Shown: positions 20,484 to 52,084 of the stretch, piece after piece | Position numbering within the stretch: position 1 is the first letter of the stretch | Layout of the letters: each line of letters opens with the position of its first letter | From: Candidatus Bathyarchaeota archaeon | Lineage (GTDB): Archaea > Thermoproteota > Bathyarchaeia > Bathyarchaeales > Bathycorpusculaceae | NCBI GenBank assembly: GCA_013388895.1 | Contig: JACAEK010000053.1 | Location: 1-55,108 of the forward strand | Direction of reading: 5' to 3' | DNA length: 55,108 bases | Program-made: the position numbers and the translations under genes | Notes under the pieces: model-generated | Told to the model about the DNA's origin: nothing | What the model saw: the letters and a program-made list of their open reading frames with translations, nothing else | The model's database searches: none

Positions 20484-20546
20484 ATGGCCAAGAAGAAGAA
20501 GGAACTTAAGGCTCCTCCAAGAGCATATTATGATTGGTTCACGTAG
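20484..20546 (+). CDS. tiny Lys-rich ORF, 20 residues, Trp near its C-terminus
   Basis: The ORF starts MAKKKKELK and ends YYDWFT. It has a ribosome site (GGTGA, six bases spacing), a strong TATA-like box and a palindrome upstream, which together make translation plausible although the ORF is tiny. Its 3' end overlaps by eight bases the 3' end of the convergent prenyl-synthase-like gene. Trp is third from the end, the same place as the prenylated Trp in the Bacillus subtilis ComX pheromone. No function is assigned; it could also be a leader peptide or chance. Confidence 0.4.
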   Translation: MAKKKKELKAPPRAYYDWFT

Positions 20547-21579
20547 ATGAGAGGATTGCCTTCCAATCTTTTGGAGTTATAAGTAGCGAAGCAGTTAACA
20601 GCCGAAGTTCATGTTTTTCGCCTTTTAACATTTGCAGTTGGGCGTTTGCTTCGTTAACTATTTTTGAGATTAAATCCGCGACATATTTGATTCCTTGTGA
20701 TTTATCTACAACTTTTGAAATTTCCCACAGATCTGCCTTTGATAATTTTTTCTCCGAGATTGCCGAGGTAAGTGTGGCTTTTGATTTCGATCTTTGCATT
20801 GCGTAGTTTAGGGGCAGTGGTAGTGATTCGTATCGTATTCTATGGAGTAGTACATTAGGTTCCAACATGTCTACTAGTTCGTTTCTCAAGATTGAAGCTG
20901 TGCCTAAAAGCCTGCCATATGCGCCTAACGCTTCAATCTCGCTTTCTGAACCGTTTCCCAGTATTCCGCCGATGCGTGTGATTGTTTCCAGTTCAGAGGC
21001 TCTCATTTTGATTTTGGCAAGGCTTTCCTGAAGTGTTGTGTCCATTTTTTTGCGGGATTGAAGTTCTGAGATTTCGCTTTCTGCTTGTTCGAACCAAAAT
21101 TTGTCGATTGTTTGGAGGATTTTTGTAGTTATTTGTTGAGATATGCTTAATTCAGCGTTTTTGCGCATTAGCGTGAAGGCTTTAAACATGAGTATGTCGC
21201 TTATGATTAGGGAGATTTCTTTGCCAAATTTTCCGAAAAGTGTTGGACGCTTATTTCTTGTTTTTAGGTTGTCTATTATGTCGTCGTGTATTCCTATGGC
21301 TTTGGCTAGCATCGTGAATGACGCACCGCACGGAATTGTAGTCTCTAGTTTACCGCCTACGGCTTTGCAGCAGAGAGAAAGGATTGTTGGTCTGAAATAA
21401 TCTGGGAGTTCTGCAGCGTAATTTAGTGCCTCTTTAAGTTGAGGATTATGGGTTTCCTGTTGTAGCAAAGTTTGTTTGGCGAGGTTCCAGCCTTTTGCGC
21501 CTTCTTTTTTCATCATTTTTTTTGTTTCTTGAAGTAGTGTTTCGCTGTTGAATTCAGTTTTTCCTATGATTTTCTTCAT
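20539..21579 (-). CDS. divergent trans-isoprenyl diphosphate synthase-like protein
   Basis: A 346-residue protein with the polyprenyl synthetase fold pattern: FRPTILSLCCKAVGG, the first Asp-rich motif IHDDIIDN, and GRLLGTASILRNELVDML where the second DDxxD should be. That second motif reads NELVD, so one magnesium site is degenerate, and the expected K-G-K-TLPL stretch is RIRYESLPLPL. It may therefore not be a normal chain-elongating GGPP/FPP synthase. The PadR gene lies 63 bases upstream on the same strand. Alternatives are a non-catalytic partner subunit or a prenyltransferase with another acceptor. Confidence 0.78.
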   Translation of the reverse strand: MKKIIGKTEFNSETLLQETKKMMKKEGAKGWNLAKQTLLQQETHNPQLKEALNYAAELPDYFRPTILSLCCKAVGGKLETTIPCGASFTMLAKAIGIHDDIIDNLKTRNKRPTLFGKFGKEISLIISDILMFKAFTLMRKNAELSISQQITTKILQTIDKFWFEQAESEISELQSRKKMDTTLQESLAKIKMRASELETITRIGGILGNGSESEIEALGAYGRLLGTASILRNELVDMLEPNVLLHRIRYESLPLPLNYAMQRSKSKATLTSAISEKKLSKADLWEISKVVDKSQGIKYVADLISKIVNEANAQLQMLKGEKHELRLLTASLLITPKDWKAILSST

Positions 21580-45056: not shown

Positions 45057-47089
45057 TTAGTTAGATGTTAGGGTAAAGTTTTCTATGCGGCTGTTGTAGG
45101 TTGTTGTGCCCCATCTGAAATATGCAATTGTCCTTTGCCATCCGCCTAGGAACGTGTACATTCGTTTGGTCCAGTAGTGAATTGTCAACGCTGCGATTGA
45201 CCTGTGCCACTGGCGTTCCACTTGTTATCTCAGTCTCAACACCTTCGGCGCTACGCTTCCAGACACGAACACCCCAATAGACAGTGTTGCAAGCATAATC
45301 AGTGACTGACGAAACCCTGCTAATATCGCTTTGATTTGCGTCTAGCTTGTAGGCTTGTAATCCATTCACGCTATGTAGGTCGCCTCGCATATATCGGGGG
45401 CTGATGTAGCTGTAGTGTCCATTGATGAAATCATGAGAAATCTCTGAAGAAGATGCGTCAAATAAGCAATAATCAGCTCCAATGGTTGCTGTGATTGCCA
45501 GTCCAGTTGAAAGTGTTCCTCCTTCAGGAGGCGCTTGTATAATTTGGAATGTAAGGTTCACTAGCCACGTCGTGCCGTTGAACGATTGGACAGGCTCTCT
45601 AGCTGTTAAGCTTTGATGATAGCGTCCAATGCTATTTTCAATTGGGTTTGCGACCCATGGACCTGAGTAATATGCCCAGAAATCGTAGTTTACGATCTCG
45701 CCTGTGCAGTTTATCAGATCATGGTTCCATTCCAGCGTCATTTCCCAGCCGTATAGAGAGGACACGTTTTCAACTATGATGCTTACGTTGAAGGTGTCAC
45801 CAACGTCTGTGTTGGTCGTGTAGAATGTGTTTTCGTTGGGCTGAACCTTAAGCATTGTTGAATATTCTGTTTTTGGAGGATTATCCAGTTTCATTGTGCG
45901 CTGGGAGTCGTCTAGTCCTTCGCCAAAATTGTTGCCCAGTATTACTGCGTCTTCAGCATTGATAAAGTCGTCTTTGTTGATGTCTGCGTCAGGATTGTAT
46001 TGCTGCTCCCCATTACCCGTGCCGAACGAAATTCCGAGGAGAACTGCATCTTTCCCATTAACATAACCATCATCACTAATATCAGGAGGAATCATTGAAG
46101 GCTGAGACCAACCATCAAGGCAAGTCAACCAAGAAAGTGCCCCGTCACTAAGTAATTCATTAGGCGTGTCTTCGAGAATTGGATGTTCATCTTCAGGGTA
46201 ATACGGGTCGTTTGAAAGTCCGTAGTCGAAAGCCTCTTTCATCGAAACAATTCCATCTTGATTTACATCCGCTTCCATGAATTCTTGGGAAAAAGGAGAC
46301 AGACAATCCAAGAATGGTTTGCTAAAACAGCCAAGAGATTGATACCATACAACCCCCCAATAATCTGTGTAATTTGATCCCGTAGGAAGACACACGCTGT
46401 TTTCTTTTTCGCGACATGACGCGATGATAATGCGATTTTGTGCTGAAAGGTCTGACCAGAATCCGCCGCCAAAACACGAAGGCGCCGAAGTACTGTTTTC
46501 AGTTTTGCACGTCGCAAACGCACACACGAGTCTTGCATAACTAACGTTTAACAAATCCTCGCTTAGTTCATCGTCCCAATATTTCTCAAAATCTTCTTCT
46601 TCGTACTCCCAAGGTTCCATGTGCATCTGGTGTATCTGTAAGCATACACATTCATCAACTCCTACAAACGCTGTTCCATTCCAATAATCTTTCAAAGGTT
46701 CATCTCCATCGTAATCCTCTCTTCCCCAACACATATTTCCTAAAGTGTCGCAGCCACCGCCGTGACTAGAAAAGAATATAAAAACCAGATCATCTGAATC
46801 TGCGCGTTGACCAAGCCATGTCGAAATCGCATAACGCACATTGTACCAACTTGCAACCAGACTTACGTTATCATGCACAACAGGGCCAGATACAGCACTC
46901 CATCGAAACTATATTCGTCAACTAACAGGTCGTATGCAATGTCCGTATCAATCTGAAATTCTAACCATCCACACACCAAAACTGCCCAACGTTTATCAAT
47001 GTAAAGCTGAAAGTCAGCATTTGCCAAATTGAAAACAAATATTGAAGTAAAAAAAACATGACAAGCAATAAACCCGTAATTACTCTCAA
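45057..47089 (-). pseudogene. C13 (legumain/caspase-like) protease with dockerin and cohesin-like domains, broken
   Basis: The longest intact frame is 45061-46878. It has the clan CD His motif FIFFSSHGGG and Cys motif RIIIASCREKE, then a dockerin-like pair (DISDDGYVNGKDAV; DINKDDFINAEDAV) and a cohesin-like domain (VGDTFNVSIIVENVSSLYGWEM). The missing N-terminus lies upstream in other frames: a TTG at 47089, seven bases after GGAGG, starts a signal peptide that needs a one-base change in a T8 run (47049-47056) to reach FNLANA and KRWAVLVCGW. A missing G at 46886 or so would restore VLYLGPVVHDN. The tail also reads better in another frame from about 45207 (YFRWGTTTYNSRIENF), through a small or larger deletion. 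It is probably a decaying gene, though errors in the sequence are possible. Confidence 0.75.
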
Positions 47090-47091
47090 CC

Positions 47092-47667
47092 TTATACCTC
47101 CAAACCGAAGTGGAAAAGGACCCCGCGTCCAGAAACAAATTCTCCTGCTACATAGATTAAGTCGTTGTGGAGATTTAGCATGTCTAGGGGGAGCATTATG
47201 TAAAAAGTGGTTGCGTTTTCACTCTCTATCACGTGATGGTACGGGCTTGGATAAGGTGGTATTTTACATATACCATACATGCCTGACGTGGAGTTGACAC
47301 TGAGTACATCGCGATACTTAGGACCACCATAAAACATCCAGCCGTCATCACCCATTATCTTTCCATCGCCATCCCTGTCAAAGACGACTATGAAACCTCC
47401 TTGAGTAACATTCACCCAAGCAATTATAGAAAGATTCCCTTCAACTATCATAAAAGACAATTCCAACCTTACAAAAAGAGACCATTGCGGAAGCTCAAAA
47501 GTAAAATTCTTAATGTTCATTAAATCACTTATCTGTGTATTCAAGTTGTCGATTTGCCCAGTCAACTCCTCAACTTTGTTACGCAAATCCACCGTGTGCA
47601 TGTACAGGAAACCGTTAGACCCTAAAGAAACACCTAAACAAACAACCAACAAGACAATCGCTATCAT
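47092..47667 (-). CDS. membrane-anchored extracellular protein
   Basis: About 191 residues: an N-terminal hydrophobic anchor (IVLLVVCLGVSLGS), a coiled coil (DLRNKVEELTGQIDNLNTQISDL), then a beta-rich extracellular domain with a calcium-loop-like FDRDGDGKIMGDDGW. The ATG at 47667 has AAGGG; ATGs at 47715 and 47757 are open but lie nearer or upstream of the TATA-like CTTAAATATAA (about 47726-47736). It directly precedes the broken protease, which starts two bases after its stop. Confidence 0.7.
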   Translation of the reverse strand: MIAIVLLVVCLGVSLGSNGFLYMHTVDLRNKVEELTGQIDNLNTQISDLMNIKNFTFELPQWSLFVRLELSFMIVEGNLSIIAWVNVTQGGFIVVFDRDGDGKIMGDDGWMFYGGPKYRDVLSVNSTSGMYGICKIPPYPSPYHHVIESENATTFYIMLPLDMLNLHNDLIYVAGEFVSGRGVLFHFGLEV

Positions 47668-47830
47668 ATAAGCCCTTGAAGACAACAAAACCCGCCTACA
47701 ATAGTCACTGTGCATGTAATTATATTTAAGCCTTAATTTGCCAGCACTCTGCCACATCCAAATAACTAAGAATTAATTGAGAAGTCGTATACGAAAGCAT
47801 CAACCAAAGTCATCAGTAAGAAGCCTACTC

Positions 47831-50429: not shown

Positions 50430-51656
50430 ATGTTGCTGCGCATGGGGAAAAAGCGGATCTCGATAATATTGCTCTCGCTCCTCCTATTGAGCATTCTTCT
50501 TTTTCTAATCGACATTAAAACAGCGAAAGCAGATGGACCTATATACATCAGAGCTGACGGCTCAGTAGACCCGCCGACTGGAATCATACGTCGTGACGGA
50601 GATGTCTACACATTGACTCAGGACACTTCAAGCAACACAAGCGGAATCATCGTCCAAAGAAACAATATCCTTCTGAACGGCTCACACCACTACTTAACCG
50701 GAACATACGCAACTAATTGCTACGGACTACTCTTGTCATCGGTGAGTAATGTCACAATCAAGAACCTGATAGTTGATCACTTCTATATCGCTATGTTGCT
50801 CATTTCTTCCTCGAACAACACTATTGCCGACAATATCTTTACGAATAACCTAGAGGGAATATATCTTTCGTATTACTCATGCAACAACACCATTTTGCGT
50901 AACAGCGTTTCTGAAACCTTTGGTGACGGCGTCCTTCTTGAGCAGTCTTTCGACAATACTATAGCTAGCAACAGCTTCGAAAACAACGGCGCTAGTGTTT
51001 CTTTATTTTCATCCAACAACAACAGCATCAGTCATAACACTGTGGTAGACAGCATTTTTTATGGCATCTGGCTTGGAGATTCTTACTACAACATTATTGT
51101 AAACAACAATGTGGTTGCGGCTGGTGATTTCGGATTCCGTGGCGATAATGCCCATAACAATACCATTTGTGATAATAATGCGACTAACAACGGTGTTGGT
51201 ATGTGGCTTAATCTCTGTTCTAACAACAAGATTTTTCACAACAACTTTGTGAACAACGCGAATCAGACCCAAATCTTTCAGTTGTCAACAAATGAATGGG
51301 ATCATGGCTATCCTTCAGGCGGCAATTATTGGAGCAATTACAATGGAACCGACATCTATCACGGGCAATATCAGAACTTGACCGGGGGCGATGGAATAGG
51401 GGATATGCCATACGATATTGCTGGTGACCTTTCAGACAAATATCCACTAATGAATGTTTCTATTCCATTATTCGGCGATGTAAATGGAGACGATTTCGTG
51501 AATGCCAAGGATGCTGTTTTGCTGGGGATGGCTTTCGAAACGAACCCAAGTGACCCGAACTGGAATCCTTATGCTGACCTGAATGGCGATGGTTTCGTGA
51601 ATGCCAAAGACGCGGTAATCCTAGGCACTTATTTCGACAAACACAGAGAATACTAG
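50430..51656 (+). CDS. secreted right-handed beta-helix (NosD-like) protein with C-terminal dockerin
   Basis: A 408-residue protein: signal peptide (ISIILLSLLLLSILLFLI), parallel beta-helix repeats of the N-N-T-I/N-S-F kind (SNNTIADNIFTNN, CNNTILRNSV, NNSISHNTVV), then YPSGGNYWSNY, and a C-terminal dockerin-like pair (GDVNGDDFVNAKDAV; DLNGDGFVNAKDAV) with calcium-loop Asp/Asn. It is probably exported and bound to a cohesin-bearing partner. ATG at 50430 or TTG at 50433 after GGAG. The dockerin resembles that in the broken protease. Confidence 0.87.
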   Translation: MLLRMGKKRISIILLSLLLLSILLFLIDIKTAKADGPIYIRADGSVDPPTGIIRRDGDVYTLTQDTSSNTSGIIVQRNNILLNGSHHYLTGTYATNCYGLLLSSVSNVTIKNLIVDHFYIAMLLISSSNNTIADNIFTNNLEGIYLSYYSCNNTILRNSVSETFGDGVLLEQSFDNTIASNSFENNGASVSLFSSNNNSISHNTVVDSIFYGIWLGDSYYNIIVNNNVVAAGDFGFRGDNAHNNTICDNNATNNGVGMWLNLCSNNKIFHNNFVNNANQTQIFQLSTNEWDHGYPSGGNYWSNYNGTDIYHGQYQNLTGGDGIGDMPYDIAGDLSDKYPLMNVSIPLFGDVNGDDFVNAKDAVLLGMAFETNPSDPNWNPYADLNGDGFVNAKDAVILGTYFDKHREY

Positions 51657-52084
51657 ACTTTCTAACGTGTGCTTCTGCAAGTTTGGAGCCTGAAAAACTT
51701 CTCTCGTTCCCCTTCTTTACATACAAACGCTGTGAGTGTCACGGTTCTCAAAGGAAAAGGCATAAATGTGAAGATGTGACTTTCCAAGACAATTACGATG
51801 TCGCCAGCTTGGTACTCGTAGCTAAAGCAAATCCATCTATATGTACCATTATCCTTCTAACACGAGGTTCAACCTATAAAGGAGAGTCTAGTCTCCGCTG
51901 AGCGCTTAAGCCTATTGGCTCATCAAGCATAAATGAATCCAAGAGAGGGGCCTACAGCCGTTGCACGCACGCACGCACGCACACGCTATCAGCTCTGAAC
52001 ATGTATTTTGGATTCATATTTCCTATTCATAAGTTTGTTATATACTCTAAGCCTATTCTTCAGCGCTGATATGGAGGAAACTCC
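51657..52084. other. 428-base gene-free stretch with a GCAC microsatellite
   Basis: No convincing gene. Five tandem GCAC units lie at 51963-51982. A TATA-like GTTATATACTC at 52037-52047 belongs to the small gene downstream. Weak open frames in this stretch lack ribosome sites. Confidence 0.5.

Follow-up and report, generated by a model that had tools for sequence, protein, structure and literature searches.

What did the minus strand between positions 47089 and 45057 of this archaeal DNA once encode, and is the gene found there broken in the cell or only in its assembled sequence? The window, by which we mean the whole stretch of 55,108 bases that we analysed, is contig G000:C29; the draft genome to which it belongs comprises 1.58 Mb in 58 contigs and has Candidatus Bathyarchaeota genomes as its nearest named relatives, so that the organism most likely falls within that class. 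An initial annotation had described a legumain/caspase-like protease with dockerin and cohesin-like modules, disrupted at several points. To trace the gene, we compared the three minus-strand frames by codon preference (trained on long ORFs in the remainder of the window). The frame translations, the codon bias and intact homologues agree on a single path made up of four segments. Specifically, the path begins at TTG 47089 in frame 47200-3k, which it keeps up to a run of eight T residues (T8) at 47049-47056; it continues from the T8 run to about 46886 in frame 47198-3k and from about 46881 to 45190 in frame 47199-3k, the segment that carries the His, the Cys, the dockerin and the cohesin; and it ends in frame 47198-3k between 45188 and 45057 (TIHYWTKR...NSRIENFTLTSN), where homology stops. 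Codon bias prefers frame 47198-3k at about 47065-46900, and between 46885 and about 45200 it prefers frame 47199-3k. The features along this path, and those of the gene directly upstream, are as follows.

47092..47757, minus strand: partner gene, an intact ORF of 221 aa with an N-terminal membrane segment, a short coiled stretch and a C-terminal beta-rich domain
47096..47101, minus strand: Shine-Dalgarno sequence GGAGGT for the peptidase gene, within the end of the partner gene and six bases ahead of the TTG
47087..47089, minus strand: peptidase start codon, TTG, two bases beyond the partner stop codon
47024..47089, minus strand: predicted signal peptide region, MRVITGLLLVMFF and then TSIFVFNLANA in translation, divided over two frames
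47049..47056, minus strand: first frame break, the T8 run, inside the signal peptide; reads U UUU UUA in the starting frame
46884..47023, minus strand: N-terminal part of the peptidase domain, DFQLYIDKRWAVLVCGW...YSFDGVLYLA in frame 47198-3k, from codon bias and alignment with L018, L019 and L050
46881..46886, minus strand: second frame break, within the peptidase domain, from frames, codon bias and homologues
46160..46881, minus strand: main clan CD peptidase domain, from homologues and a profile match to a metacaspase and legumains in the PDB
46762..46764, minus strand: catalytic His in SSHGGG
46474..46476, minus strand: catalytic Cys in CFGGG
46234..46269, minus strand: EF-hand-like loop DVNQDGIVSMKE in the peptidase domain, with similar loops at the aligned positions of L017, L018, L019 and L050
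45928..46083, minus strand: type I dockerin (PF00404) with two complete calcium loops, DISDDGYVNGKD and DINKDDFINAED
45400..45858, minus strand: cohesin module, from its AlphaFold2 fold, PDB structure matches and intact paralogues on contig C38
45188..45192, minus strand: third break, with about 57-65 residues of the C-terminal domain gone and a change of frame
45057..45399, minus strand: remains of the C-terminal domain, LHSVNGLQAY...GTPVAQVNRS and then LTIHYWTKR...TLTSN

Two features fix the frame ahead of the T8 run: the GGAGGT sequence, and a start position shared with three relatives, whose peptidase genes begin on the stop codon of the gene before. A start at TTG 47138 would bypass the T8 break but was rejected, as there is no codon bias there whereas a strong ribosome site precedes TTG 47089, whose position is the one seen in those three relatives.

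Intact homologues read through the positions at which the window gene changes frame. A peptidase gene from another Bathyarchaeota genome (L018, JAOZNA010000045.1) is a single open frame of 876 codons, and one from an Archaeoglobaceae genome (L050, JAMOPJ010000045.1) is a single open frame of 859 codons. WAVLVCG...YSFDGVLYLA in one frame of the window and VVHDNVSLVASWYNVRYAIS...SSHGGG in the next align to one frame of L050 (YYALIICG...CSFDDVYYLSV...GVNALSTKANVRWAIT...SSHGGG), and YSFDGVLYLA matches YSFDGITYLS of L018. At the third break, intact C-terminal domains hold a further 57 (G179), 62 (G046) or 65 (G025) residues. Because homology is found in every out-of-frame piece, chance is ruled out as a source of these matches. 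A 54% match of the wrong-frame C-terminus to contig C16 was discounted as DNA similarity, the right frame matching better and doing so in other genera as well. Compared with its intact homologues, the window gene thus carries several independent disruptions, two frame changes and one deletion, as is characteristic of a pseudogene. These findings bear out the multiple disruption that the initial annotation had claimed, including its break in the T8 run and its one-base break at about 46886, which we place at 46881-46886; they were obtained through the comparison with intact homologues that it had proposed. Its third change, near 45207, does exist, but lies at 45188-45192, slightly off the suggested interval of 45195-45215, and removes about 57-65 residues of the C-terminal domain by deletion, not a single base.

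Clan CD peptidases are defined by a catalytic dyad in which a His followed by Gly and a Cys stand at the ends of neighbouring strands (PMC4357240). Both blocks of the window protein, SSHGGG and CFGGG, are invariant among its homologues in alignments A1 and A4, so the catalytic motifs are intact, as had been annotated. Families C13 (legumain) and C14 (caspase/metacaspase) share this order of the His-Gly and Cys blocks; unlike them, the window peptidase would be secreted and modular, with a dockerin and a cohesin, and has an insert with a second Cys ahead of the catalytic Cys that is common to the window, L050 and L018. A PDB search with the single window sequence gave no match. When the subfamily profile A4 was compared with PDB sequences, it matched metacaspase-4 (E 7.7e-8) and legumains (E about 3e-6), and GPI transamidase weakly. 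Among relatives that exceed Pfam cut-offs, L020 and L017 belong to C13 and L018 to C14. The window peptidase itself is below every curated family cut-off and gives no match to PF01650 (C13), even when read through with X at the breaks. The description as legumain/caspase-like therefore stands as a position within the legumain/caspase zone of clan CD, and not as membership of a curated family. A scan of genome contigs with one protein detected no homologue; an alignment-based search then found L050. The structural model of the main part is weak (pLDDT 58.6), and nearly all of its best Foldseek matches belong to clan CD, none of them below E 0.001. We note that the peptidase of L050 (L050:5737-8313) carries an alpha/alpha-toroid of the squalene-cyclase/TED-like type and a C-terminal hydrophobic anchor, with no dockerin or cohesin there, and that L054:1-2739 (G003:C6) is one open frame in which a legumain-type peptidase domain is joined to a NosD beta-helix and to Ig-like domains.

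The dockerin is clear, with E 1.3e-7 and 32.2 bits against a cut-off of 22.9, and both of its loops are present. The cohesin scores 17.2 bits with PF00963, under the cut-off of 24.1, yet its model is good (pLDDT 88.6) and the best 50 listed PDB matches are all cohesins, with E values down to 4e-9. An Archaeoglobus fulgidus cohesin is among these 50 matches. In the genome as a whole, 13 dockerins and two cohesins exceed the cut-offs, in addition to cohesin-like paralogues on C38. Both modules are thus as had been annotated, and an archaeal origin of the protease is likewise supported. Taken together, these features support the view that the window protein is, as judged from its sequence, a secreted cysteine peptidase of clan CD that bears a dockerin and a module with the cohesin fold. 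Archaea that are not thought to degrade cellulose carry dockerin and cohesin proteins, and binding has been shown for archaeal versions (PMC9012536). The window protein has both modules, as do dockerin/cohesin proteins of Archaeoglobus fulgidus and of ANME archaea (PMC9012536), and differs from them in being a peptidase that bears both, and in being broken. The window contains a second dockerin protein, an intact NosD/right-handed beta-helix protein at 50430-51656 whose dockerin is C-terminal.

The C-terminal domain that follows the cohesin is a repeated ending of surface proteins and a point of breakage in the assembly. Three contigs each begin partway through near-identical DNA that encodes this domain (C16:1-167, C19:1-107 and C53:1-107), and a small 3′ remnant of it lies at C31:6116-6172.

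The intact gene upstream of the peptidase gene proved to have relatives in the same position elsewhere. We built a profile (A6) from four partner domains, namely those of L050 and L034 and two tandem copies of L033, which lie directly upstream of three homologous peptidases (two in Bathyarchaeota, one in Archaeoglobaceae). A6 detects the window partner at E about 1e-5, ranking it first among 66 window ORFs (the second has E 0.043), with a score of 39.3 against at most 19.7 in 100 shuffles. As a single-subject pairwise match has E 0.016, homology here comes from the profile comparison. Among 257 genomes of the class, strong A6 matches occur only in G043 and G199, both beside a peptidase, with a further weak match in G174 (E 0.003). 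The partner stop and the peptidase start overlap as ATGA in L033 and L034 and as TTGA in L050; in the window, the partner ends with TAA and the peptidase TTG follows two bases on. The overlap in three loci and the two-base spacing in the window indicate that the genes form a conserved, translationally coupled pair, whose predicted products are a clan CD peptidase and a small beta-domain protein, either anchored or secreted. Four paired loci are available in all (the window, L033, L034 and L050), one of which is at a contig edge. The partner gene is absent at the more distant peptidase loci L019 and L020, and it is likewise missing beside the genes for the small archaeal caspase-like proteins L066-L076. 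In L033 (2114-3633, G043), tandem partner copies, two full and one fragmentary, precede the peptidase. The partner profile has no match in the PDB, and none of the family members exceeds any Pfam or NCBIfam cut-off; the nearest approach is to CBM9 (PF06452), for which the best relative, an L033 copy, scores 18.9 bits against a cut-off of 23.4 (E 0.0015) and to which the window partner gives no match. Staphopain-staphostatin operons encode a cysteine peptidase next to a small beta protein. The window pair may be likened to them in just this respect, as gene order and partner fold differ.

We consider it likely that the broken frames are the remains of the second gene of this coupled pair, and that the peptidase gene has decayed. 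In the window, a seven-state codon-preference path, read for frame changes within one strand, places those outside the peptidase gene at gene boundaries, and along 19 kb of contig C38, a stretch of 12 genes, the same path likewise changes frame only at gene boundaries. Some 50 other genes in the window have no internal break, which makes decay likelier than poor sequence and agrees with the argument, short of proof, that the initial annotation had drawn from the intact neighbours. A second internally broken gene was found at about 8560-9770 of contig C21 (G000:C21, L026); it encodes cohesin-like, cohesin and dockerin modules, is paralogous to the intact gene C38:20304-22130, and carries two frame changes and an in-frame stop. 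Both internally broken genes in the roughly 97 kb examined (the window and stretches of C38 and C21) are therefore dockerin/cohesin genes, which favours lineage-specific loss. Among the four paired peptidases, two (those of the window and L033) are interrupted near the N-terminus, by different means, L033 by an in-frame TAG between AGSDRF and NIQLNDWD directly after the first strand (L033:1977-2113, G043:C59), a pattern that fits repeated loss. The peptidase gene is absent from the sister species G001.

The foremost alternative is that the peptidase is intact in the cell and that the breaks arose from errors of sequencing or assembly, the genome being a draft from a metagenome. One break does fall in a homopolymer, and the C-terminal domain is a DNA repeat in which C16, C19 and C53 begin, so the assembly evidently struggled with that sequence. 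In addition, the main part of the gene runs for 600 codons without an in-frame stop, which means that any decay would be recent. However, the unbroken state of the other window genes and of those on C38 speaks against a poor sequence, and a second T8 run (21516-21523) sits within the intact ORF 20539-21579. Moreover, the window copy of the C-terminal domain has only about 65% protein identity to the repeated copy, so a simple repeat collapse does not fit, and the third break takes out 57-65 residues. We regard error as unlikely on this evidence and infer decay; the window pair has probably lost its peptidase.

It is very doubtful that the long frame, of 605 codons, still serves as a peptidase-less dockerin-cohesin adaptor; the dockerin and the cohesin do stay open with coding bias, but these modules act outside the cell and the frame has neither a signal peptide nor a ribosome site at its GTG. 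U UUU UUA is the classical minus-one slippery heptamer. Phase variation, in which the T8 run would switch expression on and off through slippage or programmed frameshifting, is the most improbable reading, for although a minus-one slip on the heptamer in the starting frame would reach the next coding frame, the heptamer occurs at the T8 run only, the second break lacking one and the third being a deletion, so that a slip there would not by itself yield an active enzyme, and L018 and L050 are single open frames while the signal peptides of L033, L034 and L050 show no such run.

Returning to a decayed member of a coupled pair, we suggest that in working relatives the ribosome would end the partner gene and start the peptidase gene at the same spot, so that both products would be made together, presumably at the cell surface. 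The second product would be a secreted clan CD cysteine endopeptidase, probably calcium-dependent, that would serve extracellular protein breakdown. In the window lineage, to go by its predicted modules, the dockerin would plug the peptidase into other surface proteins and the cohesin would hold further dockerin enzymes. Here, the two frame changes would cut the catalytic part off from the signal peptide and the first strands, and the deletion would trim the last domain, with the result that no secreted active enzyme is expected; the partner frame remains open despite this decay. The partner might either bind the surface or a substrate through a CBM9-like fold or restrain the peptidase until it is outside, and the weak CBM9 match leads us slightly to prefer binding. 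More tentatively, archaea may share a surface unit of two genes, docked in some lineages through cohesins and dockerins, whose clan CD peptidase is translated together with a small beta-domain protein that belongs to an unnamed family and would control or aim the peptidase; this partner could be an inhibitor, an escort or a substrate-binding subunit.

How sediment archaea begin extracellular protein breakdown is an open question. In Thermoprofundales, secreted clan CD peptidases of families C11, C13 and C25 are thought to begin the breakdown of detrital protein (PMC6461988); the window family would likewise be secreted, and it differs in its modules and in having a dedicated co-translated partner gene. 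For Bathyarchaeota without recognised extracellular peptidases, it has been asked how this breakdown begins (PMC9534799). Since peptidases of the subfamily can fall under the usual family cut-offs, they may be missed, and enzymes such as that of the window could form part of the answer. The co-translated partner offers a handle for finding and testing such peptidases, and the broken copies indicate that the peptidase can disappear while its neighbours persist. Elsewhere in the window, a short run of CACG repeats occupies the intergenic positions 51960-51990.
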